Shown: piece by piece, positions 5,039-52,045 of the stretch | How positions within the stretch are numbered: position 1 is the stretch's first letter | Layout of the letters: each line of letters opens with the position of its first letter | Source: Escallonia rubra | Lineage: Eukaryota > Streptophyta > Magnoliopsida > Escalloniales > Escalloniaceae | Length of the DNA: 64,000 nucleotides | NCBI GenBank assembly: GCA_033065855.1 | Contig: JAVXUO010003116.1 | Coordinates: 92,001-156,000, forward strand | Direction: 5' to 3' | Notes under the pieces: generated by a model | The model's database searches: none | Told to the model about the DNA's origin: nothing | Seen by the model: only the letters and a program-made list of their open reading frames with translations | Translations under genes and position numbers: made by a program

Positions 5039-5177
5039 AAATGTTTTTTTTGAAGTGATGTTACTGAATAGAATGGTTGAATGAAGTTTGTCTTAACCTT
5101 ATAGGAGCAAACAATCTTAAAAAGAAAATGAGTAGCATACGCTGAGTTTTCTATCTAAGAACATGTAAATAAAAATA

Positions 5178-6741
5178 GGGTTAATTACAAAATTGTCCCC
5201 TGAGGTTTACATGTTTTTGCACTTTGTCCCCTACGTTTACAACTTTTGCAATAGTGTCCCTCGAGATTGACAAAATCATTGCAAACTCCAAAATTGGACG
5301 GCCGTCCAAAATTGGACGTTAAGTCGACATGTGCCTGTCATGTGCCATTTTTTTCACTAAATTGAAGGGTAAAATTGTAACTTTAGTAAAAAAAATCCCT
5401 TCATCTTCATCTTGGCCTAACAGTGTTGGGTCTCAACATACTCGTCTTGCTCCACGGCATCATTAGCACCAAGAATTATAGCCTGAGATTGAGACTGAAG
5501 TGATAGAAACTCGGGAAGAGGAACGACGACGCTTGCGTTGGGGAGCACTTGCCGATTCAACGAGTTGTTCCCTCTGAGTTAATATGCTTTCTTACTTATC
5601 TTCATCGTGAGAGCTTGGACCCCTCCCCTTCCATGGGCGAAGAAACCCAAACATTACAATAACCCAGTCGTTCTAGCACCAGCCAGAAAGAAATCCAAAC
5701 CAAAGTAATGGATTAATTTTCTCCCAGGGTGGCAGGACTATAAGTCGTGGGGGTTTGGGTGTAAGGATCCCAGCTACTCGTCTCCTTATCCTCACGGTAT
5801 GAGATCCCTCCATTAGTTAAGTCACTCAAGCAAGAAGAAACGATTTGCATACTTGGGATTAGCTTAAGAGAAAAGCCGCAGACCCAGCTTATCATAGGAT
5901 CTAGTTCTGCTGCTAGTTCGAGCTTAAATTCAGATGGGCGAAATTGTGATTGGAGTTGTCGCTACGGTTGGGCTTGATGGGGCGCTTGGGTGCCAAGGAA
6001 TTGAAATGGGCTCTAACCTGACTGGCCATTTGAAGCTGGTGATCTGGGTCTAGAACCTCGTCGCTCCGGCTAGGCTTGGTTACCGTATCCGTCTGTCCAG
6101 CCATGACTATGAGGATGTTGTGATTGATCTTCCGATGGTTTGGGTCGGCATTATATATCTGAGTCTTTATCCTTTTGAGGAGGGAGAGAGAGAAGCATTT
6201 ATTGGAAAAGGAGGTTGACACTAATAGGCAGACAATTCAACTCTGGAGTGAGCAGTTACACGGTAATGTTTGGAATATGAAGGACACCCAGAGACAAGAA
6301 ATGAAAACCCATTTCTTCATATCCAAGAATTCGCCCTCTCTCTAATTCTATCTACATATATGCAGCTATGTACTACCTTTTTCTTTCTTGGACGCCATTT
6401 CTCAAATGGCAAATTGAAATTGTGTGATCTCTACGCATCTGGTGGTGTTTGTTTTAACATCAAATTGAGAGTTTAGGGTTCTAAGAGAGGAAGAGAGAAG
6501 AGAGTAATGGAGGTTTAGGGTTTTCAGAGGGTTTGGTAAGGCATTTGACTGATTTGCCCATGCCAAATCGGCATGTGCTGTGCACATGTCGACTTAACGT
6601 CCAATTTTGGACGGCCATCCAATTTTGGAGTCGTTTGCAATGGTTTTGTCAACCTCGAGGGACACTATTGCAAAAGTTGTAAACACGGGGGGCAAAATGC
6701 AAAAACTTGTAAACCTCAGGGGACAAATTTGTAATTAACCC
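5178..6741. mobile_element. Pack-MULE 1, perfect 9-bp TSD, carries MEE59-like sequence
   Basis: Long inverted repeats (GGGTTAATTAC at the left, GTAATTAACCC at the right, continuing for more than 120 bases with CCCCTGAGGTTTAC and CTATTGCAAAAGTTGTAAAC motifs) are bordered by ATAAAAATA at 5169-5177 and 6742-6750. The perfect 9-bp target duplication and long TIRs identify a Mutator-like element. There is no transposase. The inside holds a captured host-gene fragment on the minus strand (5417-6104). The element at 47675-49283 belongs to the same TIR family. Confidence 0.92.
5417..6104 (-). pseudogene. Captured MEE59-like gene fragment in a Pack-MULE
   Basis: From ATG at 6104-6102 the minus strand encodes MAGQTDTVTKPSRSDEVLDP and soon QVRAHFNSLAPKRPIKPNRS. 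Further on (about 5550-5417) another frame gives LPEFLSLQSQSQAII and DEYVETQHC before a stop. In my recollection, small plant proteins of the MEE59 (maternal effect embryo arrest 59) type share this order: a PSRSD start, an APKRP-KPNRS motif, then QSQS and EFVETQYY motifs. The gap between the two blocks could be an intron. The C-terminal part of the family (GSGFI region) is absent, and the end after VETQ is a stop, so this is a truncated copy taken with its exon order kept. The family assignment needs a protein search. Confidence 0.6.
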
Positions 6742-6790
6742 ATAAAAATAGAATATAAAAAAGGAAACAAATTATTTGACAAAGGTCATA

Positions 6791-11041: not shown

Positions 11042-11378
11042 CAAGATTAGCAGCTTTTCTTAGAAGAGTTTCTACAAGTCTGCCAAGGTCCCACCATAAG
11101 TCCGTTTTAACTCGGGTCCAAAACCATGCTTGAGTAATCTGAAGTTTTAATCCCATCCATTTGACCTCCAAAAAAAGCTTCCTGAAAATGTGCTGGCTTT
11201 GACGTATTACTCGGTATATCTCACGCATTTGTGTACAAACCAGGAACTGCGCTCGCATCTGCTTCACACCTGGACAATTACTGTGAACATTGAGGAGCAG
11301 TTACTTTAGTAGCTGCTGTATCCTCTGAGCTTTTGTTGCCATCTTTGTGGTCCGGGTGCAGTCATCGGTAATTTAAGT
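11042..11378 (+). promoter_or_regulatory. Probable 5' leader or promoter of the kinase gene
   Basis: About 340 bases between the hAT-like element and the ATG at 11379. I found no convincing TATA box, so the transcription start may lie upstream, within or beyond the transposon. Confidence 0.35.
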
Positions 11379-12521
11379 ATGCAGCAACATCATGGAGAAA
11401 AATCCAGTGAGCAAGTCAATCCTCCATTGTACACACCAGAACAAGTATGCCGTCACTTTGGACTCGCTGAGATCAGACTGGCTACCCAAGACTTTGCCGA
11501 TGCACTGATCCTTGGCAGGGGCGGATTTGGATATGTGTACCAGGGGCAAATTGACAATGGGGCAAGTACAGTTGCCATAAAGCGGCTGAATTCCATGTCC
11601 AAGCAAGGAGCCGTAGAGTTTAGGACAGAGATTGAGTTGCTTTCCGCGTTTAGACATTGCCACCTTGTCTCCTTGATTGGTTACTGTGACGAATCCGATG
11701 AGATGATCCTGGTTTACGAGTATATGTCCAATGGCACCCTTTACGATCAGCTGCACAAAGTTGGTAAAAATGGAAATTCCCCTTTATCTTGGGTGCAACG
11801 CCTCCAGATATGTATGGGCAGCGCCCGCGGGTTGGACTACCTTCACACTGGTACGGGAATTCAGCATCGAGTCATACACCGTGATGTAAAGAGCTCAAAC
11901 ATTCTGCTAGATGAAAATTGGGCAGCTAAAGTTTCGGATTTTGGGTTGTCAAAAATAGGGCCAGCCAACCAGTCATGCTCTTATGTTAGCACTGATGTTA
12001 AGGGTACATATGGGTATTTGGACCCAGAGTATTTTTCGACCTGTAGACTGACAAGTAAAACAGATGTTTATGCCTTTGGTGTGGTATTGTTCGAAGTTCT
12101 TGCTGGGAGGCCCGCGGTGGATTCAAGACTTGCAGAGGAGCAACATAGTTTAGCAGCATGGGCTAGACGCTGCGTCAAAGAAGGGAAAATAGATCGGATT
12201 ATGGATCCCAGTTTGAGGGACGAGCAAGTGTGTCCAAAAAGTTTGAAAAAGTTCGTGAAAATTGCAGATCAATGTTTGCGACGGAATCAAGAAGAACGCC
12301 CCACAATGGCTCAGGTTGTGGTCTGTCTTCAGTTTGCATTGAAACTACAAGAGATCTGGGGTTCTGCTCTTGTCGAGGGGGAGACTTTGCAAGCTCGGGT
12401 GACCACGGGTAAGCCCTTCATCTACTTTGATATACGGATTTCTCTATCCTCCTGCACTCCCCCTCACCAAAACCCACATAAACAACACACTGTCACATGC
12501 ACACATTGTGTGTGTGGGTGA
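11379..12521 (+). CDS. FERONIA-type (CrRLK1L-like) receptor-like cytoplasmic kinase
   Basis: The product is a Ser/Thr protein kinase whose kinase domain resembles that of the CrRLK1L (FERONIA-like) receptors, which sense cell-wall and peptide signals at the plasma membrane. Visible landmarks are the glycine loop GRGGFG (46-51), Lys68 in VAIK, the alpha-C Glu at about 84, HRD at 167-169 followed by VKSSN, DFG at 187-189, GTYGYLDPEY (209-218) and the conserved Arg at about 307. All catalytic residues are present. There is no signal peptide, malectin-like domain or membrane segment, so it is a cytoplasmic relative or a shortened tandem member. The frame continues past a plausible splice donor (GGGTAAGC at about 12407) into simple repeats, so the last ~35 residues may be intron read-through and the true 3' end may be spliced or lost. 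Confidence 0.85.
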   Translation: MQQHHGEKSSEQVNPPLYTPEQVCRHFGLAEIRLATQDFADALILGRGGFGYVYQGQIDNGASTVAIKRLNSMSKQGAVEFRTEIELLSAFRHCHLVSLIGYCDESDEMILVYEYMSNGTLYDQLHKVGKNGNSPLSWVQRLQICMGSARGLDYLHTGTGIQHRVIHRDVKSSNILLDENWAAKVSDFGLSKIGPANQSCSYVSTDVKGTYGYLDPEYFSTCRLTSKTDVYAFGVVLFEVLAGRPAVDSRLAEEQHSLAAWARRCVKEGKIDRIMDPSLRDEQVCPKSLKKFVKIADQCLRRNQEERPTMAQVVVCLQFALKLQEIWGSALVEGETLQARVTTGKPFIYFDIRISLSSCTPPHQNPHKQHTVTCTHCVCG

Positions 12522-20679: not shown

Positions 20680-23600
20680 ATGGGGAATTGATGTGTGTGT
20701 AGGCACCAGGGGCGGAACCAAGATTTTTTTTTCAGGGGGTGCATAAATTATATCGAATTCACCAAAAAAATTTATTAGTAAAATGGAATGTGATTTCCGG
20801 TGCATGCAAGGGTTTCAATTCAATTTCTTCCTTTCCACAAAAATGGTGCAACAAAAAATGGAAAGAAGAACAAGTTTATGTAGGAACGTAGTTCTCTAGA
20901 ATTGTTTGTGCTTGGAAGGACATGCCCCGACGAGAGAACTGGTAATCATCCCAAAAGAGAAGTACGTACAGGGAGAAGTGATTAGTGTGGAACTCACACC
21001 AAAGCCAAACAAGGCAAAAGAAAGAAACAAATTAAAGACACTACCCAGAGAACTTAAACGGTGCAAAACATCTGGTAGGTGGAAAGCCAATTTGGCTATT
21101 TCCTTTGATTTGGCTCCAAAACTTTTGCTTTGCCTCCAAGCAAATCCACTTCACCTCTTATACATGTATATATGCCATGTGAGTCTCGGATGACACCCTA
21201 GAACACTCACCAACATAGTTCTTCACATCCGAAGCTCTCTCTGTGTTTAGTATTATATCAAATTTCTTGGATACACTGTGATGTTTTAGTCCACATATGT
21301 TGCTATTGTGTGAGCAGAGGAAATCAATAAGAAATTCAAAGAGGTCTTAGATAGGCCAGATGTTAAGCAGAAAATTGATGCCGGAGGGGAGTTGGACCAG
21401 GGGTTGAAGGAAAAATTCGTGCAAGTTCAGGAATTTCTTTGATACACTGTGCAGGTTCACCACATAATTTTGCTATCAAATTTCAAAAGTCAGGGGGTGC
21501 ACTAGCCACCCCTAGTCCTAATCTAGTTCCGTCCTTGGCAGGCACGGTTTCAGCTGCCTCAGTTCCTCCTATGCCAAAGAGCCAGGATGAAATTCTACAA
21601 TCCTGCAACTTGAAGAGCTTTGGTTACGATGAGCTCAGAGTAGCCACCAGGAATTTTCGACCTTGTAGATTGTTGGGAGAAGCGGGTGGTTTTGGTTGTT
21701 TTTTCAAGGGCTGGATCGATGAGAATACATTTACAGCGGCCAGGCCTGGGACTGGCATGGCTATTAACGCGAAGAGACTTAGGCAAGAAGGTTTCCAGGG
21801 TCACAAGGAATGGTTGGTAAGTAAGACTTTCCCTTTTAGGAAGGATTTTCTACAGTTTTAAAAATTAATAGTATCATGCATAATCTTCCATAAGCTGATC
21901 TTATATCGTGAAAGATACTTCTAGATCACATGAGCTTAGTCAAAGCAAAAAACTTCATTGCAATTTACGTAGGTGATATCATCGTGCACTATTGTTGCAC
22001 AAAATCTTCTCATTGTCCATACTCCATAGCATTGCCACCGCCTGTTTCCCCAATGAAACAGACTGCCGAGGCGATGGCATGCGGCATTGCTAACAAAGGT
22101 TTTATTCTAGAACCTTGTCAATCACCTATGTTTGCACTATCCCTGGTCATTCCTGCTATTGATAGATGTTATTGGTGGCATTACTATTAGCAGTTTCAAG
22201 TTTAAACGGATTGGGTAATAATGTGGAGCCTCTAGAATTGCAGGCAGAAATTAATTATCTAGGGCAACTTTCTCATCCCAATCTTGTAAAATTGGTTGGA
22301 TACTGCCTTGAAGATGAGCACCGGCTTCTGGTGTATGAGTTTACGCCCCGATGCAAAGTGGACAATCATCTCTTTAGGAGAGAGTTCTTGTAGTGTCTTT
22401 GGCGCTTTTGAGTACATTCTATCTTAGATGAGGGGCATTTACACTGGCCTCTGGTTCTCATTATTTGTTGTCTTCTTTTAATTACCCGAGTCTGCTTGGT
22501 GCAGGGAGTTCTTACTTCCAACCACTCTCTTGGAACCTACGGATGAGAGTTGCTCTGGGTGCTGCAAAGGGACTTGCATATCTTCACAGTCCAGAAGCAA
22601 AAGTGATATGCATGTTCAAGTCTTCTAACATCTTGATTGATTCTGTATGTCGAACATTTATATGTCGAACACATAAAGTTATGGCTCCCCGGAATTATTC
22701 CTTACAACTTTCACCCTTTTACTACCAGGACTATAATGCAAAGCTTTCTGGTTTTGAGTTGGCCAAGGACAGGTCAGATGATAGGGAAAGCGATGTATTG
22801 CCCCAGCTCATGGGTACCTATGATTATGCAGCACCTGAGTATCTGGCCACAGGTAAACTATGTTCTCAGCTTGTAGTGCGTTTACATTTTGATCTCATCC
22901 CGATTGTTACTATTCCCTTGGATTTACCTGTTGAGCACTTGTAATTATTCTCAATTCCTCACCATGCCACTGTCAAGTGGGAATAGATATTTAATTTCAG
23001 TCATAGGCATTAACCCATGTGTGCCAAAAGTAACTCTGAAACAATTCGGAGAGGTTTGGTGTACTTAAATTTTCTGGATATCTTGTTTTCTCTTTCTGAA
23101 ATTTCCAAGCACTGGTTTTCCGGCTATCTAAGTTATTAGGATACTGAGCCTTCAGCCTTGGCTTTTCCCGTTTATGGTTTTGTTACATATATGGCTCTGA
23201 AGTTCCGTCTCAGAGATGCTCTCCATTTTAGATGTTCATCTCCTCCCCAACAAAATGAGAAAATAATAGGAAAGGTCCCAACACAAATGAAAACATCTCT
23301 AGGCTCATTCATTTGGCTTTGGCTACACTATCAGACATCACATCCGACTAATTTAACTGTATACTTGCTGCCACATTCCGTGAATTTCCATTCTGGACTG
23401 AATCGACCAATCTGTCCCTTCTGATCCTGAGTTCAATCTCTTCTTATCAAGGTCATTTAACTGCAAGAAGCGACGTGTACAGTTTTGGGGTCGTTCTCCT
23501 CGAGATGTTGACTGGCCGACGAGCGGTGGACACAAACCGTCCACAGGGGGAACACAACCTTGTTATGTGGGCAAAGCCTTGCCTGACCAGCAAACGAAAG

Positions 23601-23809
23601 ATTTTCAAGGTCATGGATGCACGAATTGAAGGCCAATACTCGTTGGTCGGAGCAGTTAAAGCTGCTACTATTGCAGTCAAATGCCTTTCAACGGAACCCA
23701 AATTACGGCCCAGTATGGTTGAGGTGGTAGAAGCATTGGAGCAGCTTCAGGATTTGAAGGACTATGGAAGTGTTAGAAGTGAATCGGTCAAGAGGCATCC
23801 ATTGAGATA
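20680..23809 (+). pseudogene. PBL/RLCK-VII kinase gene, disrupted
   Basis: Five exons match PBS1-like cytoplasmic kinases of plant immunity and growth signalling: 20680-20706 plus 21546-21816, 22244-22380, 22505-22644, 22729-22852 and 23452-23809. Recognisable pieces are [68 protein letters not shown] and [20 protein letters not shown]. Damage is extensive. A single extra A after codon 3 (20691) turns the start, which would read MGNC (N-myristoylation type), into MGN-stop. An 831-bp hAT element splits exon 1. The glycine loop reads GEAGGFG and VAVK reads INAK. The exon 2 donor has no GT. The HRD-type motif YRDFK is CMFK (22609-22620), losing the catalytic Asp. DFG is GFE (22750-22758). Yet exons 2-5 remain free of stops. 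It is best called a pseudogene; a transcribed pseudokinase is possible. Confidence 0.9.
20707..21537. mobile_element. hAT-like element B, inserted in exon 1 of the PBL gene
   Basis: Ends CAGGGGCGGAACCAAG and GGTTCCGTCCTTG-like (CTAGTTCCGTCCTTG) with subterminal TCAGGGGGTGC on both sides. The borders are GTAGGCAC (20699-20706) and GCAGGCAC (21538-21545), 8 bases with one mismatch. It shares family features with 10230-11033 and 24482-25979. A 40-codon stretch rich in Lys/Glu (about 21316-21440, containing EEINKKFKEVLDRPDVKQK) is unexplained; it may be cargo. Confidence 0.85.
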
Positions 23810-41197: not shown

Positions 41198-41386
41198 TTG
41201 AACGATGGGTCCCAATTTCAACCGACATGATCATTAAACTTAAACCTTGAATCAGACCACAGAGAGAAAACACGATCATCACCACATTTACTTCTGCTGC
41301 CCAACCATATTCACATTGTTCTCGTCACCGCTAGAACCAGCCATCGCCTCGTACTTGCTGCCTTCACTGAGCCTGTCATCGCTGAT
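41198..41386 (+). repeat. 189-bp direct repeat, left of the copia element
   Basis: Identical, as read, to 46224-46412 (constant offset 5026). It directly abuts the left LTR at 41387. Confidence 0.95.
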
Positions 41387-41627
41387 TGAAAATTTGAGAA
41401 ACAGTAAAATGTTTCTTGTATTTCTTCATAGCACTTGGATACAAGTTTATATACAACAAAAACACCTAATATCACTCCTAAATACAAGCTATTCCAACTA
41501 ATTACAGCATGACAATTATCCCTATGATCATGGTGATTATGTCCCTATGATTATGGTGATTGTGGTGATTAAGGTTGAGTCAATGATCTGATACAAGACA
41601 TACATGGAAACAAAAGATCCTCCAATA
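41387..41627 (-). repeat. Copia 3' LTR
   Basis: 241 bp, matches 45978-46218 base for base as read. Confidence 0.95.
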
Positions 41628-41727
41628 CTTCCCCTCAAGTTGGAGGATGAAGAGTGGAAATGCTCAACTTGCCAAGTAGCTAATGAAATCGATCATGTCC
41701 AAGAGCTTTGGTGAACATGTCCGCCAA

Positions 41728-42380
41728 CTAATCTTGTGAAGAAATTGATTTGGTGGCAATGGTTTGTGACTGAATATGTTGCCGAATAAAATGGCAATCT
41801 ATCTCGATATGTTTTGTTCGTTCATGAAATACAGGATTAGCTGCAATGTGAATAGCTGCTCGATTGTCACAAAACAAGGAAACTGGAGTAGTACACGATA
41901 CTTGAAGGTCTTGCAAGAGCTGTTTGAGCCAAATAATCTCACTAGTGGTGGTTGCCATGGCTCTATATTCCACCTTGCAGAAGAATGGGAGACCACTGTT
42001 TGCTTCTTAGCTCGCCATGAAACTGGTGAAGAACCAAGAAATATGATGTAACCAGTAGTTGACTTTCGTGTCATGGGGCATCCTGCCCAACCTGCATCAC
42101 AAAATGCCCGCAAAGATAAGGTGTTTTTTAAGGGAGCAAGATACCTTGACCTGATGACCATTTCAAATAACGAAGTACCCTATAAGCAGCATCAAGATGA
42201 GGTTGTCACGGGTAATGCATAAATTAACTAAGAATATGAACTGCATAGCTGATGTCTGAACGGGTGATATTGAGATACAATAATCAACCCACTAACCGAC
42301 GATATTCTTTCGGATTTTTCCAAATTTCACCGGATTCATTGGAAAGCTTATGTTGCTGCTCCATTGGAAAAGAAGTCGGT
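41728..42380 (-). pseudogene. Copia RNase H region, frame broken
   Basis: Downstream of the main frame, separate frames encode RNase H motifs: [19 protein letters not shown] (about 42110-42050), then, after a frame change near 41975, [19 protein letters not shown] and [16 protein letters not shown] frameshift near 42385 separates this region from reverse transcriptase. The element therefore looks unable to make a full polyprotein. Confidence 0.85.
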
Positions 42381-45300
42381 TTACATCCAGTCAGACCCAC
42401 ATTCGGCCAAGATGTCAAGGACATATTTGCGTTGACTCAAAAATATCCCTGCTGGAGAACGTGCCACCTCGATCCCCAGAAAATACTTAAGCTTCCCAAG
42501 ATTTTTGATGTGAAATTTTGTATCCAAGTAATTCTTCAGCTTGCAAATACGATCTGAATTTGTCCCTGTGATAATAACATCATCAACGTAGACAAGAACA
42601 ACAACAAAAGATCCTCCATGGGTGAAAGTGAACAAGGAGTAATCTGCAGTGGATTGCCGAAAACCAGTAGCAAGAAAAGCAGTAGTAAATTTTTGATACC
42701 AATTTCTAGATGCCTGGCAAAGACCATAAAGAGATTTCTGTAATCTGCAAACACGTTGCTCCCCCTTTTTGGCAAACCCTTGTGGAATCTTCATATACAC
42801 TTCTTCCTCCAAATCGCCATGTAAGAAAGCGTTATTCACATCTAATTGATGTATTTCCCAATTTTTCACTGAAGCAATTGTCAATAAACAACGGACTGTG
42901 ACTAATTTTGCAACCGGGGCAAATGTCTCATGAAAATCAATTCCCTCAATCTGAGTGTAACCTTTTGCAACGAGACGCGCCTTGTAACGTTCTATGCTCC
43001 CATCTGGTCTATATTTGATTTTGTAGACCCATTTGGAATCTATAGCTCTTTTGTCAGAGGGCAATGATTCCAAAGTCCAAGTTTGATTTTCTTCCAAAGC
43101 AGCAATTTCCTTTGTCATTGCATCTCTCCAATGTTCATGTTTGACTGCTTGAGAAAAGGATCTCGGCTCATCATTGGATGAGATGGCCGCTAAGAAAGCA
43201 GTATGATTAGGAGAAAACTTGGAATATGAAATAAAGTGAGACAAAGGATGTACCGTCGAATTGGCCGAAGGAGAGGATGGAGGCGTGTTATTCTCTACAG
43301 GAGCAAGGGAGGGAGGCAAGACATACTGATAGCCTGATAGAAAACGTGACACTTGCCGTTGCCTTTTGCTAGGGAGAGTGGCGGCTTGCTGATTCTCAAC
43401 TGTTGGAGTCGATTCATCTGATTCAGAGCACCCAACTTCAATATCTGGCGAAATGGGTTCAGTTGCGATAGATTCCATAACTGGCTCTTCAACAGGATCA
43501 GTGCACAAGTCAGTACTCAAAGGAATATTACCAGCATCTGGTTCTTCGTTGCTTACTTGTCTTGATTCACCCAAACTGGACTTGGTATAAGGATAGATTC
43601 CCTCTAGGAATTGAACATCTCTGGAAACATAAATCCTTTTGCTTTCAAGATCGTATATCCTATACCCTTTCTGCCCATTAGGATATCCAACGAAAATTCC
43701 TGGTTTAGCACGAGGAGCAAATTTATCACGAGGTTTACTATTCACATGTCCATAACATAGACACCCAAAGTTCCTTAAATGCTCATATGTTGGCTTCTTT
43801 CCAAGTAAAATTTCATATGGAGTTCTGTCCTTTAAAGTTGAAAGTGGCATTCGATTGATTAAATATGCAGCAGTAAGAACACATTCTCCCCAAAAGAAAA
43901 TTGGAAGATTTGCTTGAAATCGCAATGCACGAGCCACTTCCAAAAGATGCAGATGTTTGCGTTCAACTACTCCATTTTTCCGTGGAGTATCCGTGCAACT
44001 AGTTTGATGTTCCATGCCATGATCAGAATAATAGCTCATTAAATCACGATGAGAAAACTCTAAACCATTGTCAGTTCGAAGAGCTTTTATGTCCATATGA
44101 AATTGTGTATGAACCCAGTTGAAAAATTGCAATAAATATTCCTTAGTTTCTGACTTGTGTGTCATGAGAAAAACCCATGTTGCTCGACTGAAATCATCCA
44201 CTATAGTCAAGAAGAAATGACATCCATAGATTGATTTTGTTTTATACGGACCCCATATGTCACAATGAATCAAATCAAAAACATGCTGGGTTTTATTCAT
44301 ACTGAGAGGAAAAGATAATCTTGTCTGTTTTGCTTTGTAACAAACATCACAGAATGAAGTTTTCTTGCAATCGAAACTGACCGACAAATCTGGAATTAAA
44401 GAAATGCAATTAACCGGGAGATGACCCAACCGCAAGTGCCACATGTTTGCAGAAATCGTGTTCCTTGCCGTTAATGCCTTCCCCCCTTTTATTGGCTCCA
44501 AATAGTAGAGTCCATTACGCTCTCTACCCACTCCAATCAGCCTCCTCGAGTGTAAGTCCTGAATCACAAAGAAATTTTGCCAAAATGTCAGCGTACAATT
44601 CAGATCACGTGTTAATTTACTAACTGACATTAAATTGAAACAAAAATCTGGAACTCCAAGGACTTGATCAAGAATCAATCTGTTTCCAAGATTAATCTGC
44701 CTCAAAGCATGAACATGTATTGTTTTTCCATCAGGTATTTGGACAGGTGGTATATTATGCTGTTGTTCAACATTGGATAAGGAATTTACATCATGAGTTA
44801 TGTGGTTTGTTGCTCCAGTGTCAACAATCCACCCATTTTCTGTCTTACCCGAGAAGTTTGAGGTAGCCATATTTGCGGATGGGTTACCTCCAGGTGCTTC
44901 TTGTCCATTTAACAAAGCCATCAATTGTTGTTGTTGAGAAGGTGTTAATCCTGGAATCAGCAAATTTTCTCCATCCATCTTTGCTGTAAATGCAGCGTTG
45001 GAAGAGTTGGTTTGTTTATGATCTGCTCGTGAACTATTCCCTTTTCCAGGTTTGCGCCAATCTGATGGATAACCAATCACCTTGAAGCAATACTCTTGGC
45101 TATGGTTTGTTTTCCCACAGTGTGGACAAGGTGGAAATTGGTTGCGTCTTCCACTGCCATTCCCTTTCATTTGCGAATCACTTCTCTTGGTGAGTAAGGC
45201 AGCAGCTTCAATGGTGGGAGTGCGACTTGCTGCAATAGAACGCTGCTTCTCTTCTTGTGCAGCAATAGCATAGGCCCTTCCAATATTTGGTAAGGGATCA

Positions 45301-45845
45301 ATGCTCAATATTTGAGATCGCACTGTTGTGTATGCCTCATCAAGTCCCATCAAAAAATCGAAAACCTTTTCTTCTTCTCGCATAATCTGCATCTTCTTCG
45401 CTGCACCACAGGTACATCCGCATTTGCATATTGGCGTGGGATTCAGACCTTGCAATTCCCCCCAAACACTCTTCAATTTGCCATAATATGATGCAACTGA
45501 AGCCTTTTCTTGTTGCAAAAGAACTATGGCACGCTTCAACTCATAAACTCTTGGAGCTATTCCTTGTGTGAATCTTTCTTCTAAATCTTGCCACACTTCT
45601 CTTGCTGTTTCAGCATGCGTAGCATTCCCTTGAAGTTCTTTTGCAAGTGCATTTGTGAGCCAAGCAAGAACAACAGCGTTACACTGGATCCATGCCTGAA
45701 AATCAGAAGAGGCATCATCTGGTTTTTCAATCGTTCCATCTACAACGTCAGCTTCGTTTTTGGAATGAGAAGCGTTAAGAAAACTATGTCTCCAAGTGAA
45801 ATAATTGTCTCCATTTTCACTTAGAGGGTGTGTCACAAAAATCAA
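42381..45845 (-). CDS. Copia gag-pol polyprotein (lacks RNase H in frame)
   Basis: 1154 codons. Gag of the UBN2/Retrotran_gag_2 type covers roughly 1-220, with a zinc knuckle C240-C243-H248-C253. The protease active site is DTGATNHIT (Asp342). The GAG-pre-integrase zinc region lies near 468-505 (HLRLGH...CDVCYKAKQ). The integrase DD35E triad is Asp529, Asp592 and Glu628. Reverse transcriptase spans about 920-1150 with YVDD at 1086-1089. The frame stops at SDWM, where family members continue into RNase H, so a frameshift truncated it. Gag-pol in one frame is usual for copia elements. It lies on the strand opposite to the genes in this window. Confidence 0.95.
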   Translation of the reverse strand: MIFVTHPLSENGDNYFTWRHSFLNASHSKNEADVVDGTIEKPDDASSDFQAWIQCNAVVLAWLTNALAKELQGNATHAETAREVWQDLEERFTQGIAPRVYELKRAIVLLQQEKASVASYYGKLKSVWGELQGLNPTPICKCGCTCGAAKKMQIMREEEKVFDFLMGLDEAYTTVRSQILSIDPLPNIGRAYAIAAQEEKQRSIAASRTPTIEAAALLTKRSDSQMKGNGSGRRNQFPPCPHCGKTNHSQEYCFKVIGYPSDWRKPGKGNSSRADHKQTNSSNAAFTAKMDGENLLIPGLTPSQQQQLMALLNGQEAPGGNPSANMATSNFSGKTENGWIVDTGATNHITHDVNSLSNVEQQHNIPPVQIPDGKTIHVHALRQINLGNRLILDQVLGVPDFCFNLMSVSKLTRDLNCTLTFWQNFFVIQDLHSRRLIGVGRERNGLYYLEPIKGGKALTARNTISANMWHLRLGHLPVNCISLIPDLSVSFDCKKTSFCDVCYKAKQTRLSFPLSMNKTQHVFDLIHCDIWGPYKTKSIYGCHFFLTIVDDFSRATWVFLMTHKSETKEYLLQFFNWVHTQFHMDIKALRTDNGLEFSHRDLMSYYSDHGMEHQTSCTDTPRKNGVVERKHLHLLEVARALRFQANLPIFFWGECVLTAAYLINRMPLSTLKDRTPYEILLGKKPTYEHLRNFGCLCYGHVNSKPRDKFAPRAKPGIFVGYPNGQKGYRIYDLESKRIYVSRDVQFLEGIYPYTKSSLGESRQVSNEEPDAGNIPLSTDLCTDPVEEPVMESIATEPISPDIEVGCSESDESTPTVENQQAATLPSKRQRQVSRFLSGYQYVLPPSLAPVENNTPPSSPSANSTVHPLSHFISYSKFSPNHTAFLAAISSNDEPRSFSQAVKHEHWRDAMTKEIAALEENQTWTLESLPSDKRAIDSKWVYKIKYRPDGSIERYKARLVAKGYTQIEGIDFHETFAPVAKLVTVRCLLTIASVKNWEIHQLDVNNAFLHGDLEEEVYMKIPQGFAKKGEQRVCRLQKSLYGLCQASRNWYQKFTTAFLATGFRQSTADYSLFTFTHGGSFVVVLVYVDDVIITGTNSDRICKLKNYLDTKFHIKNLGKLKYFLGIEVARSPAGIFLSQRKYVLDILAECGSDWM

Positions 45846-45977
45846 GCCAGGATGATCTGATGGATGAAGGTAATAAGGTGATGAAGTATCGATGGTGGTT
45901 TTGGCAATCTCCTTCGTTCCACTCCCGGCAAAAAAAAAAAAAAAATCAGAGGTCTCAGAAACCTTGCTCTGATACCA

Positions 45978-46218
45978 TGAAAATTTGAGAAACAGTAAAA
46001 TGTTTCTTGTATTTCTTCATAGCACTTGGATACAAGTTTATATACAACAAAAACACCTAATATCACTCCTAAATACAAGCTATTCCAACTAATTACAGCA
46101 TGACAATTATCCCTATGATCATGGTGATTATGTCCCTATGATTATGGTGATTGTGGTGATTAAGGTTGAGTCAATGATCTGATACAAGACATACATGGAA
46201 ACAAAAGATCCTCCAATA
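45978..46218 (-). repeat. Copia 5' LTR
   Basis: 241 bp; primer-binding site immediately adjacent at 45966-45977. Confidence 0.95.
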
Positions 46219-46223
46219 TAAAC

Positions 46224-46412
46224 TTGAACGATGGGTCCCAATTTCAACCGACATGATCATTAAACTTAAACCTTGAATCAGACCACAGAGAGAAAACACG
46301 ATCATCACCACATTTACTTCTGCTGCCCAACCATATTCACATTGTTCTCGTCACCGCTAGAACCAGCCATCGCCTCGTACTTGCTGCCTTCACTGAGCCT
46401 GTCATCGCTGAT
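46224..46412 (+). repeat. 189-bp direct repeat, right of the copia element
   Basis: Identical to 41198-41386; separated from the LTR end by TAAAC (46219-46223). Confidence 0.95.
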
Positions 46413-47190
46413 GCACCATCTGCATTAAAGCTGCAATCCCGGATCGAATCTTCACTTGGAATCCCAACCATCATCAAACTTGGAGTCTTCCCTCATCACT
46501 AGAGAGCACCACCATTGGACTACTACAGACGGATGATCGAGCCACCGCAAAACGCTAGGAATTAAGTGAAAAACTGTGTCAATCTCTTTGCTGCCGCGAG
46601 TTATGGCAACGTCATCCTCGCCTCTATCCAGTGCTATTTTCCACTACCTTGCACGAATGTACAAGCATTTTGCACTGCCACCATCGTCTTCTCTATTGTT
46701 CGCTGTTTTGCCGCTGCTAATACCTCATGTTGCTAGCCATTGGTCAAAAGGGCCTCCAGTTTGTACACAAGTTCAGGCCAGGAAAACTCAATCTAAATTC
46801 TTACTTTGTTGCAGCCCATCATTTGTTGAAGCCCACTCTTTTTGTTTAAGGTCCCGACCCAGATTTTCCTTTATTTTGCTATCGAATTTAAGCCCCAAAT
46901 CAAACACTTTTGTATGTATAATTCTGGTTGGCCCATCCTTTCATTTAGGAATTCCAGATTTTTTCATGACAGACACACCAAGGGTCGTATCATGCCTATT
47001 TGCTAAACAGTGGTTTTTGGATCTCAATTTCAGGATCGTCGTGATCATGCCAGGACCTTCATTCACCTTGGGGGTTGGTTCACTCAGGTTGTTGGGTTGC
47101 CACAAACGTGGATTCACTTTGATCGTCGGACATCTTATGTAATTTAACTAGAAATCACCCCAAGACCTCTACTTTGTTGGGTTGTTTCTT
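46413..47190. other. Continuation of the unassigned insertion
   Basis: Joins 40613-41386 once the copia element is removed. A 188-codon open frame from 46576 has no recognisable domain and an odd composition. I do not call it a gene. Confidence 0.45.
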
Positions 47191-47493
47191 GGTCCTCAGA
47201 CTTTTCTTATTCAGAAGTATTAGATCAGAAGAGATTTTGTATAGATTAAGCTGCCATCCTGATTAGTTAGGATAGAATTTACATTTCAAAATTTTGTATT
47301 GTCTCTCTCTCACACCTAATTGGTTGTGAGATTTTTGTATTTAAAGAATGTACATGATAATGGATAAGGATGATACAAACTTTTGAATACAAATTTTGAA
47401 ATATAAATTCTATCCTAACTAATCAGGATTGCAGCTTAATCTATACAAAATCTCTTCTGATCTAATAAGAAGTCGCTCTGAGACCTTTGTCCA
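47191..47493. repeat. Inverted repeat with ~80-bp arms (fold-back MITE candidate)
   Basis: The left arm (about 47203-47305, containing TTTTGTATAGATTAAGCTGC and GATTAGTTAGGATAGAATTT) is complementary to 47386-47490. The spacer is about 90 bases with a CTCTCTCT tract. No target duplication was identified. Confidence 0.75.
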
Positions 47494-47964
47494 CTTAGTT
47501 GCTTGACCTACCTTAATGTCCAGGAGTCTGAGCTGGGATCTCCAGAAATAGCCTTAACGTGTGCTTTGATGGGTTGCCGGACCTTCCTCCGCGATTGTCA
47601 TATTCATTAACTTTGTATGGCGATCATTTCTCACTGGACCACCAGAGAAACTCTCATGACCTCCATTTACTCAAGGGTTAATTACAAAACTGTCCTATGA
47701 TGTTTACACGTTTTTGCACTTTGCCCCCCGTGTTTACAACATTTACAATAGTGTCCCCTGAGGTTGACAAAACCATTGCAAACAGCTTCAAAATTGGACG
47801 TCCGTTCAATTTTGGACGTTAAGTCGTCATGTGCGGTGCACATGCCATTTTGGCATGGACAAATTTGTAATTTCCCCTTCCCCATCTTCCCCACTGTGTT
47901 CATCTCTCTCTGTAAGACCTACAGGAAGCACCCTCGCCTCTTCACGTTTCCATTTACTTATGCA

Positions 47965-48399
47965 ATGGCTTCAATCACAGCCGAAATAACTCATGAATTC
48001 CCACCATTTTTTTCGAGTCTACAAAGATGTTCGCGTTGAACGCTACCCAGAGAGCCCTTACATTGAACCAGCCCTTAATCCCAGAACCGGCGTCGAGGCA
48101 AAGGACGTCGTGATCTTGTCAAAACCCAGCATCAAGGCATGAGTTTTCATGCCTTGAATCACCGGCCCAAAAAAGAAGCTCCCTCTGGTTTTCCATTACC
48201 ACGGTGAAGCCTTCTATGTCGGATCACCCTTAATTAACGCTGTAACCCTAAACTTTTAACCTCATTCGTCTCACTAGCCCAGGTCATAGTTGTGTCCGTT
48301 GACTACAGGCTCGCTTCGGAGAACCCGCTGCCAATCCCTTACGAGGACTCAATGCAGTGAGTTGTAGCTAATCTCGGTGGGGAAGGACCTGAACCGTGG
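47965..48399 (+). pseudogene. Captured carboxylesterase (CXE-type) fragment
   Basis: Starting MASITAEITHEFPPFF, then after a one-base T insertion in the T run at about 48006-48013, RVYKDVRVERYPESPYIEP, TGVEAKDVVIL, KKLPLVFHYHGEAFYVGSP, VVSVDYRLASENPLPIPYED and [10 protein letters not shown]. This is the N-terminal half of the plant carboxylesterase/GID1-like alpha/beta-hydrolase family, including the HGGG oxyanion region, here altered to HGEA. Several in-frame TGA codons and the missing catalytic-Ser half make it non-functional. There is no intron; whether the source gene had one here is unknown. Confidence 0.85.
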
Positions 48400-49026
48400 G
48401 GCCAGCCCAAGTTCAAGTCCAAGATCACCCACCTCGTCTTCTACACCACCTCTGGCGTCGACATGCCTGGCGCCGACTACCAGCTCACCAAGCTCCTCGG
48501 CCTCTGCCCCTCCGTCAAGAGGCTGATGATGTACCAACAGGGCTGCTTCGCCAGAAGCAGCGTCCTCTGCCTGGCCAAGGATCTCGCCAAGAACAACGCC
48601 GGTGCTTGTGTCCTTGTCGTCTGCTCAGAAATCACCGCCGTCACTTTTTGTGGACCCTCTGACACCCATCTGGACTCCCTCGTTGGTCAGGCTCTTTTCG
48701 GTGATGGTGCTGCCGCCGTGATCGTAGGCGTCGATCCCGATGTCTCTTTCGAGAGCCCGCTGTTCCAACTGGTGTCTGAGGCGCAGACCATTCTGCCGGA
48801 ATCCGACGGTGCAATAGATGGACATTTGCGCGAAGTGGGGCTCACTTTTCATCTACTAAAAGATGTGCCATGTTGATTTTGAAGAACATCAAGAAGTCGT
48901 TGAAAGAAGCTTTTGCGCCGATTGGAATCAGTGACTAGAACTCGTTATTTTGGATAACTCACCCGGGTGGTCCGGCGATTCTAGACCAGGTGGAGGCAAA
49001 GCTGGGACTCAAGGAGGAGAAGATGG
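48400..49026 (+). pseudogene. Captured chalcone synthase fragment
   Basis: From [19 protein letters not shown] the sequence reads as chalcone synthase: [30 protein letters not shown] (with the catalytic Cys), [71 protein letters not shown] and, after a frameshift near 48873, KEAFAPIGISD, a stop (TAG at 48936-48938, where the family has Trp), [20 protein letters not shown] and KLGLKEEKM. It covers roughly residues 118-325 of a ~390-residue enzyme. The start, the C-terminus and the third catalytic residue (Asn) are missing. Most of it (48360-48870) is still one open frame. Confidence 0.93.
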
Positions 49027-49293
49027 GGAAGGGGAACAGATAGAGAGATGAACATAGTAGGGAAAGATGGGGAAGGAGAAATTACAAATTTGCCCATGCC
49101 AAAATGGCATGTGCACCGCACATGACGACTTAACTTCCAAAATTGAACGGACGTCCAATTTTAGACCCGTTTGCAATGGTTTTGTCAACCGCAGGGGACA
49201 CTATTGCAAAAGTTATAAACAGGGGGGGGGGGGGGAAAAGTGCAAAAACGTGTAAACCTCGGGGGACATTTTTTTAATTAACCATTTACTCAA

Positions 49294-49697
49294 ATCACCG
49301 GTAAACCTTCATTACGTGGTGTTCAGACTTTTGATCTAGGGCCATTAGAGACATCATAGGACCTTTGTTCTTGATCTCCTCTGCGATTCCACGAATTGTT
49401 GGAAATCATGCTAGGGCCTCCATTCAAGTCTCGCTGTGAAACCTTGGATTATCAGGGATCTTTCCCATGTTGTAGGATCAACTTCACCTCAAACATGTCA
49501 TCTTGCCTTCACCTTCAAACTCAAGCCGGTTCCTGTCCACCACCTTATGTTTGTGGGGGGTAGTTAATGTATATTGATGTATAGGTAGCTTGTGCAGGAA
49601 CCATGTAGCTTTTACTGTACACCACCTAGTATAGCTTCTCCATCACACCTGATAGCTTGCTCCCCACATAAATTATTGGTGCTTTGTATAAAGCATC
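49294..49697. other. Unassigned; its end repeats duplicated-segment sequence
   Basis: Bases 49600-49697 (TAGTATAGCTTCTCCAT, TAGCTTGCTCCCCACATAAA) match 40290-40390 and 61855-61955, so this short sequence exists three times in the window. Confidence 0.6.
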
Positions 49698-49705
49698 CTT
49701 GTATC

Positions 49706-50515
49706 TAGGGCTGTAAGGGAGCCGAGTTATTCATGAACGGGTTATTGCTCATTTGTGCAGATGTCTAATATATAAAGCGAAGATGGACAAGTTTTTACAG
49801 CTCATTTATTAGATGAGCTTAGCATGAACACTTCAAATTATTCACTAACATGTTCAGAACGACTTGTCTGGATAAGAAATTTATGATTTGATTTTCAAAG
49901 AATGAAGGCTTTCAAACGTGCAAATAAATTATTTTTAAAGCCTGGAGGCCTTTAACGCAGTTAGCTCAAAACATAGGCCCAATGCTAAACCAAACATTTC
50001 CTACATGCAGCCCGACCTCTAAATTTTATGTGCAACCAAAAACCCAAATATGCGACCTAACTTCTCTACTTTTCCATTTAGAAAACCCCAATATCACATA
50101 GCCTCACAGCTGCTCGTCTTCTTCACAGGCGCGGTCACACTTTTCCTCTCCTCATCTTTTGCACACGCACACCCGCGCGCACTCTCCACCTAAAACACAC
50201 GTACGGACACTCTTTCGCAGAACGGCATACACACCCTCCTCTCCCTATATATATATCGGATATTATCACTTCTTCATCTACGACTCCTAATATCTTATCT
50301 TTGTGAAGATCCAGAAGTCCGTTGAGGGCAAGTTCGCGTAGTTCGACAAACAAGTCGAGACAAGCCTGGGTTTTGCGGTAACAAACTTGAGGTGAACTCA
50401 AACATTTATATTCGGATCGTAACTAACATGAGTTGATATCAAACTCAGTGAAAATGTACTAACCAAACTCAAACACCTCGCTGTTAGGCTCAAACTCAGT
50501 TCTTATGCAGCCCTA
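49706..50515. mobile_element. hAT-like element, 8-bp TSD
   Basis: Ends TAGGGCTGTAAGGGAGCC and CAGTTCTTATGCAGCCCTA. The borders are CTTGTATC (49698-49705) and GTTGTATC (50516-50523). Duplicate loci at about 40378 and 61945 read uninterrupted CCCTTGTATCCAC, giving two natural empty sites. No transposase. Confidence 0.85.
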
Positions 50516-50523
50516 GTTGTATC

Positions 50524-52045
50524 TACACTTAAAATGGACTTGAATCATGTAGTTGTCTTTGCAACAATGTGGGAATTCACTTATTGAATATTGACGTTTG
50601 TTTTACATATTCCAATTCAACTAGGAATTCAAATTTAATCAAAGTCAATAGATGATCGGATAAAGTTCCACATTATACTATCGTTTGTTATGGGGCACGA
50701 TGTGATTAGACCATGGTTTGATCCTTATAATGTAACATGATTATGCTGCAGTAGAAATGTTGGGAGAAAGGGTAATAAGTTGGAGGTTACTTTATTTCCT
50801 TACTTGGTTATACTATATATAGAATCCATCGATCAACACAAACTTAGTTACAAATTTTCTTTAGCTCTCTCATTTGTTGAAATATGAAGTTAATCAAAAC
50901 CAATTTCGATGTTTAATGTTACTTTTTGCCCATTATCTGATGATTAGTTTGGGGTGTAATATATCTCGACATTCAGCATGTTAATCGAATGGTTCGATCG
51001 TCTATTCGGTGCATCTAGATTTGGGGTAATTTAATGGTTGTTCGGCTTGTCCCCTAAACCATCCATGTTTCTTGGGTTGTATGTCGGATCTTTTATTGCA
51101 TAAGTGGACTAATTTGGTTAGTAGAACTAGCGACAGTAAGCCCTATGTACGATTCATATGGTTCATGTATGTCTGTCGACTATCAGTGAGAGAGAGGACA
51201 CGTATAGCTTATTTGAGTAAAGCATGGAAAATTCAATACTGCTGGAAGCAGTGCGATTTGATGGGTGGTGGATGTTGTATTCATGGAAAGAGGGGATTTG
51301 TGTGGTTGTAAGGGACATGAAGATGGGCAATGATGGTGGTTTTAGTTTTTTTTTTTTTTTTTGAAATCAGGTAAGAAGACTACATGTTGTATAAGCCAAC
51401 ATCCAACTACAAAAATTTTACACATCCTAGCGATATAAACAGATGGTGATTTTAGTTGAACTCATAACAAGTCCTATAGTTGGTCAAGTATCAATAGCCG
51501 AGAGAGGCAGCCCAAGAGCTTGAAGATTTTGATGGGGCCAATCTTTTAATTACCTCTGTAAAATGAAGTCAGTTGGATATAGCATTTTTAGGTCTCTCTG
51601 ATATGTTACTCTCTTCTTCTCTACACCTTTGGCAACTTGTGCTATGTCTACATGTTTGTGCTTTGTTAAATTTCTTTTCCCACTGGTTTCATTTATGCGG
51701 ATTGAGGCCGAGGAAAAAAGCTCTTCTCTTGTGAAAAGATTCCTGTTGACTGTCACGCGTTCTAGTATGGGGGGAACCTTTGGATAGTCTACTTTAAGTT
51801 TCATATTCAGCTCTTAACTTTGTGATTGGTAAGTAGCTTTAGCAATTGGATTTGGTTTAAGCAAAATAAAATTACTTTCGATCATGATTTTTAGAGTGCA
51901 CCCGAAAGAGAAAAAGATTGCACTAAGTTGATTTGGCTGGCCATTTGATTGTCTAGGAATTCCTGAGCTTTTGCAACGTCAAATTGTTAGCAATCTCAGC
52001 AATTCAAAGGTCTAAGAGGAATTGCTCTCTTTCAAAACTAGTAAA
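50524..52045. repeat. Duplicated segment, part 3, left copy
   Basis: From AGATGATCGGATAAAGTTCC (about 50651) it aligns with 62174-63470 for about 1.3 kb. One block near 51690-51780 reads RIEAEEKSSSLVKRFLLTVT after an acceptor-like site. The right copy reads IEAEDKSSSLVKRFLLTVKH in the same place, suggesting an exon of an unrecognised gene. Confidence 0.75.
51346..51441 (-). mobile_element. Small poly(A) retroposon with 14-bp TSD
   Basis: A 96-bp insertion absent from the duplicate at about 62850. It is bordered by GATGGTGGTTTTAG (51332-51345) and GATGGTGATTTTAG (51442-51455). A run of T at its left edge is a poly(A) tail on the minus strand. This is the signature of LINE-driven retroposition; the source is unknown. 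Confidence 0.8.

Follow-up and report, generated by a model that had tools for sequence, protein, structure and literature searches.

Two host gene fragments in one Pack-MULE of Escallonia rubra: a multicopy carboxylesterase::chalcone synthase chimera, probably assembled in two steps

How does a transposon come to carry the start of a carboxylesterase gene (CXE) joined head to tail to a part of a chalcone synthase gene (CHS), and is the product a gene or a passenger? The question is raised by a locus in a stretch of 64,000 nucleotides from Escallonia rubra (C1237:92001-156000, called the window below), which belongs to an assembly of 566 Mb in 3222 contigs. An in-frame join of one enzyme to another does not by itself imply a new gene. 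The reading that we prefer, with a probability of about 0.88, is that a non-autonomous Pack-MULE took up pieces of host genes in two successive steps and later multiplied as a passenger.

The Mutator-like element occupies positions 47675-49284 of the window (1,610 bp). Its terminal inverted repeats (TIRs) have a length of about 235 bp each and are 88% identical to each other; the left one begins with GGGTTAATTA (47675-47909, plus strand) and the right one covers 49042-49284 (minus strand), the inner limits being approximate in both cases. A search for inverted repeats returned the arms as two pairs, 47724-47892/49060-49228 with 92% and 47666-47729/49230-49293 with 83% identity. The element is enclosed by a perfect target site duplication (TSD) of 9 bp, TTTACTCAA, at 47666-47674 and 49285-49293. 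The TIR pair and TSD of a Pack-MULE, as proposed by the sequence-only reading, are thus in place. The interior (47910-49041) comprises 1.1 kb, and no match to transposase families was obtained for the five interior pieces and two read-through readings that were searched. Long TIRs, a TSD of 9-10 bp, fragments of cellular genes with donors elsewhere, and the lack of an internal transposase are features of Pack-MULEs, and all are found here. By every feature for which a test gave an answer, the element is a chimeric multicopy Pack-MULE.

The TIRs probably belong to a large element family, as a genome search with them gave 1674 first-look candidate places, 40 of which were scored. An autonomous partner was not found in the one 3.6-kb transposase region that was compared; blastn did not match it to the left TIR, and the region may not reach the ends of its element. 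Matches to the transposase family PF10551 are abundant in the genome (150 scored of 3309 candidates). Many MULE transposase frames have 777-783 codons and identical scores (e.g. C1232:67523-67804), which suggests a recently active family. The window contains a second element with TIRs of the same family at 5178-6741 (region 5169-6750); it has a perfect 9-bp TSD, ATAAAAATA, and no frame of more than 107 codons in its interior.

Protein searches bore out the identity of both captured parts. Directly inside the left TIR, about 50 bp from upstream of the CXE start codon are retained (47913-47964, plus strand; limit approximate), as seen in the alignment to a CXE gene on contig C1870 (L047). The first ca. 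145 codons of the CXE coding region follow at 47965-48399 (plus strand), assigned by the gene alignment, by Pfam family PF07859 and by a PDB match. An open piece of 32 codons matches PF07859 with E=2.3e-7, and a read-through translation of the pieces, in which X replaces the stops, reaches E=1.4e-10; an open piece of 50 codons gave no Pfam match on its own. The best PDB match is 2-hydroxyisoflavanone dehydratase (E=1.3e-24), and plant enzymes with a carboxylesterase fold are matched as well. Small indels (one T gained in a run of Ts, a single-base deletion, and a loss of 9 bases) and three stop codons interrupt the CXE part in the window. Compared to related genes, two of the stops represent C>T or G>A changes and one an AGA>TGA change.

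The CHS part, which derives from exon 2, extends from WGQPK to LKEEK (48397-49025, plus strand; end approximate). It matches PF00195 (E=1.7e-56), PF02797 (E=3.8e-9) and chalcone synthases in the PDB (best E=6e-83). It had been described as mostly open, and this holds up to about position 48873, where the frame is lost by deletion of one base; a TAG codon occurs further on. The stretch past this frameshift is still recognizable (PF02797, E=3.6e-18; PDB, E=3.2e-22). About the first 117 residues of chalcone synthase are missing, as is its C-terminal end, and the cysteine of the QQGCF motif is retained in the window copy.

Probable donors of both parts, with open frames, were found in the same genome. 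The best-matching CXE gene, L047, has an open frame of 305 codons and is 85% alike; a second gene on the same contig, L050 (303 codons), is 83% alike. For CHS, the candidate is gene L008 on contig C2913 (91%), which has exon 1 and, within a frame of 343 codons, exon 2; other CHS genes that were compared (L001-L007) are only 69-71% alike over the aligned stretch. Judged from these alignments, the C1870 CXE and C2913 CHS genes are probably the donors. As the CXE candidates are only 83-85% alike, the exact CXE donor may be another gene or allele.

Comparison with these genes confirmed the order of the parts (CXE before CHS on the same strand), their in-frame contact, and the microhomology at their join, all of which had been proposed from the window alone. 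The chimera reads CCGTGGGGC where the CXE gene reads CCGTGGATT and the CHS gene GAGTGGGGC, so that four bases, GTGG, are common to all three (48396-48399, plus strand). The reading frames of both genes agree at this position, with GPEPW being followed by GQPK. When breakpoints were drawn at random from the two gene loci, four or more shared bases occurred in 1.8% of 200,000 draws. Chimera copies that have CCGCGGGG instead probably carry a later change.

The chimera is not confined to the window. A search of the genome for the CHS family gave 115 matches, of which at least 15 begin at profile positions 112-115 (the window copy begins at 113). The CXE piece has 25 genome matches, which represent the window site in two haplotypes, 19 other elements, and four places in the gene array on C1870. 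CXE and CHS still meet in 17 of these 19 elements; in the remaining two, CHS is either reduced to its first bases (C2204) or is not found in the stretch examined (C386). Including the window site, the chimera thus occurs at 18 or more sites. The CHS piece has at least 43 genome matches, a lower bound because 40 of 67 candidates were scored. Both element ends could be read at 15 chimera sites, and 11 of these, the window site among them, have a perfect 9-bp TSD. Deviations at the other four are minor, with one mismatch in L011 and L025, two in L021, and an 8-bp match in L049. All 15 TSDs differ from each other, so these sites are independent insertions.

The second haplotype of the window site is found on contig C389, which aligns to 46220-50995 of the window at 96-97%, except for a small insertion, and has the same TSD and flanks. 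Only four mismatches occur among the 1,200 bases of the interior from 48000 to 49199; over most of the surrounding sequence the two haplotypes diverge by about 3%, and in the left TIR by more than that. This near-identity may stem from gene conversion or may be an assembly artefact. In a fragmented assembly of 3222 contigs, one might also suspect that unrelated sequences were fused artificially at the junction; nothing except this fragmentation speaks for it. The same junction recurs at 18 sites, and at the window site it is present in each haplotype; these independent copies refute such an artefact, the probability of which we consider to be close to nil.

The window also has several other features. 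Just upstream of the element, a snap-back repeat (47218-47467) has arms of 77 nt which are 97% complementary. It is absent from C389 and thus probably is a polymorphic MITE-like insertion. Also absent from C389 is a Copia element (41198-46412) with a 1210-codon frame on the minus strand and identical 241-bp LTRs. An identical 189-bp repeat flanks it on each side and is present once in the C389 stretch; this arrangement is not explained by ordinary insertion. The window further contains long, diverged duplications with pieces that are 79-93% alike (1-3219/28512-31087, 37864-40576/57712-62110, and 50649-52027/62177-63472). A protein kinase frame of 402 codons is located at 11313-12518 (PF07714, E=5.6e-48), and separate frames, two of them with weak matches to kinase families, are found at 21379-23807; together they perhaps represent a split kinase gene.

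The chimera copies differ in the extent of their CHS part. CHS positions 385-602 are retained at the window site only. Elsewhere, at 17 of 18 sites, 218 bp of CHS are absent: the match ends at 379-384, and it resumes at 603 in 11 cases. The CHS tree nevertheless places the window copy among the copies which lack this segment, and forcing the latter together costs 8.15 log units (p-AU 0.0485). The window copy may have regained the segment, or the tree may be off; how far it is from the gene and from the CHS-only copies favours neither reading.

Which of the two genes was captured first can be read from related elements. Four elements (C1068, C2972, C826, and C1612) carry CHS without CXE between the same TIRs, although for C2972 only the right TIR is found in the stretch examined. 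In these CHS-only elements, CHS extends up to position 2292 of L008 and is joined to the TIR via a duplicated segment of the inner TIR end. This CHS/TIR junction (49016-49036 in the window) is identical in all four and in the chimera, which is why we conclude that CHS was captured first. Three of the CHS-only elements share their CHS start point, which lies 12 bases ahead of exon 2, while the match of C2972 begins later. The bases preceding exon 2, GATCTACTACAG, are present in all three elements for which the 5′ end was read. The splice site is presumed here, being placed from the structure of the CHS gene. CHS was apparently taken from DNA, as 12 intron bases precede exon 2. Given this splice site, we reject capture from spliced RNA, as the CHS-only relatives contain these bases. 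The chimera is most simply derived from such a CHS-only element.

Phylogenetic analysis agrees in part. In the CHS tree, the 19 chimera rows, which stand for 18 sites plus the other haplotype of the window site, group in a single clade (96/89). Their nearest neighbours are C1068 and C2972, but this branch is weak (86/72). The picture is not tidy, as the four CHS-only elements do not form one clade and the C2913 gene is placed among the element copies. One may also envisage that CXE was captured first and CHS later, or that both were captured together, and C386, with CXE but without CHS in the stretch examined, would agree with an early CXE capture. However, the CHS-only elements have the 3′ CHS/TIR junction of the chimera and extend in the 5′ direction to the exon-2 boundary. 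In addition, C386 has a 1-base CXE deletion which it shares with the chimeras, and it may therefore be a chimera that has lost CHS. We consider this reversed or joint capture to be quite improbable.

A history in which CHS came first would have the following steps. Surviving relatives show the first one, in which an element of the TIR family took most of exon 2 of a C2913-like CHS gene together with what appear to be the last 12 bases of the intron. The start of a C1870-like CXE gene would then have replaced the 5′ part of the CHS piece, with the switch occurring within the shared GTGG. While the order of these events is shown by the shared junctions, we infer the mechanism; template switching during gap repair or replication would be expected to leave shared bases. 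The copies themselves show the third step, in which the chimera spread to 18 or more sites, 17 of them without the 218 bp of CHS. Finally, the pattern of changes described below suggests that the copies were methylated and then decayed, with no coding constraint being detected. One such decayed insertion, present in both haplotypes, is the copy in the window. The sequence-only reading had described a chimera within a single element; the two captures stand, but the chimera exists in multiple copies and arose by two successive steps within an older element that already carried CHS.

Could the chimera nevertheless have become a new protein-coding gene? The frames agree at the junction, the QQGCF cysteine has been kept in the window copy, and frames of 198-298 codons that start with ATG cross the junction in five elements (L014, L016, L018, L019, and L023). 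However, all 20 aligned element rows lack one CXE base that is present in both CXE genes, so that CHS is not in the reading frame of the CXE start codon. Four of the five long frames begin outside the CXE frame, while the fifth (L018) begins late within it. Stop codons interrupt the CHS frame in six of 18 chimera rows, and the CHS piece is truncated at both ends. Compared to the CHS gene, dN/dS is 0.35-0.80 in the 18 chimera rows and 0.56-0.92 in the four CHS-only elements, and the pooled value between 17 chimera sites is 0.53. Neutral simulation with the observed mutation pattern gave a median of 0.59 (5-95% range 0.32-1.05). Coding constraint was thus not detected, the chimera values being inside the neutral range, although weak constraint may be compatible with the simulated range. 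For four other CHS genes compared to L008, dN/dS is 0.05-0.10, with dS being saturated. On account of the shared frameshift and the neutral dN/dS we reject a fusion gene; a usable fusion is not supported, and that the chimera is a new protein-coding gene is very improbable. Its copies look like decayed passengers and not like a working gene.

The type of changes also fits decay. We counted distinct changes over CHS 1-379, pooled across copies, at positions where at least five of seven CHS-only elements have the base of the gene. C>T and G>A make up nearly two-thirds of them (100 of 153), with per-site values of 0.61 at CG, 0.57 at CHG, and 0.22 at CHH. For the window copy alone, 13 of 25 changes are of this type, nine of them at CG. 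This pattern, which is densest at CG and CHG, fits methylation-driven decay as in methylated transposons.

If CHS-bearing copies were transcribed, in sense or in antisense from a TIR, they might, as the sequence-only reading proposed, give rise to small RNAs that lower CHS expression. The window copy and the CHS gene have 57 21-mers in common, with a longest exact run of 36, so that crosstalk via small RNAs is possible. A better candidate than the window copy is the CHS-only copy C1068, which shares more (217 21-mers, run of 89). CHS also adjoins one or both TIRs of these elements at 29 sites. In maize, captured fragments are reported, in the part of PMC13317346 that was available, as siRNA reservoirs against donor genes. 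On the other hand, the exons of the CHS gene are open, and the pattern of decay agrees with the copies themselves being silenced, which requires no effect on the gene. For Helitron captures in Brassica napus, the available part of PMC11986588 reports that methylation of donor genes was affected, while expression did not differ between the groups compared. We consider such an effect on CHS to be unlikely.

A further CHS-bearing MULE lineage (C2850, C1874, C866, C1660, C1060, C1392, and C1019) has other CHS ends and more distant TIRs. In its elements (L022, L024, L026, L027, L028, L058, and L059), CHS is joined to a different shared upstream fragment. These differences indicate that CHS was probably taken up twice. 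It is conceivable, though unlikely, that related MULE lineages took up CHS two or more times and that 29 or more scattered CHS-bearing sites would jointly act as a small-RNA source which tunes the C2913 CHS gene and thereby flavonoid levels.

Pack-MULEs of rice and other plants were reportedly described by Jiang et al. in 2004. The element resembles them in its long TIRs, the short TSD, the captured gene pieces, and in that no transposase was found inside. In Oryza, 5-10% of the MULE-derived putative genes have two or more parental genes, and most evolve neutrally, according to the available part of PMC4858842. Within the part of the literature covered on chalcone synthase with Pack-MULEs or Mutator-like elements, no CHS Pack-MULE is described, and chalcone synthase figures as a rate standard only in what was available of PMC3544724; for carboxylesterase in such elements, the part covered consists of fungal work only. 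Soybean Tgm-Express is likewise a plant DNA transposon with host gene fragments, but it is a CACTA element and not Mutator-like; alternative splicing of mobilised fragments is mentioned in the title (PMC1947982, available in part).

The available part of PMC8277862 calls the acquisition of DNA by Pack-MULEs perplexing and deems it worth exploring whether gap-filling or FoSTeST template-switch models apply to them. The animal Pack-TIRs described there also have breakpoint microhomology and became multicopy through later transposition, with distinct TSDs. The present element differs from them in being a plant MULE and in that the switch lies where one captured gene passes into another and not where the element passes into filler. 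In summary, a chimeric multicopy Pack-MULE is of a known kind, but it is unusual that a predecessor type with one gene, the product with two, and the probable donors coexist. As the state before (CHS only), the state after (CXE::CHS), and probable donors with open frames are all present in one genome, the breakpoints left when an existing Pack-MULE made its second capture can be resolved at the level of single bases, which makes the template-switch nature of that capture testable. Compared to other Pack-MULEs, the donors here are CXE and CHS, a shortened form is found at 17 of 18 sites, and one-gene relatives survive which reveal the order of capture, so that the copies record gene capture step by step.
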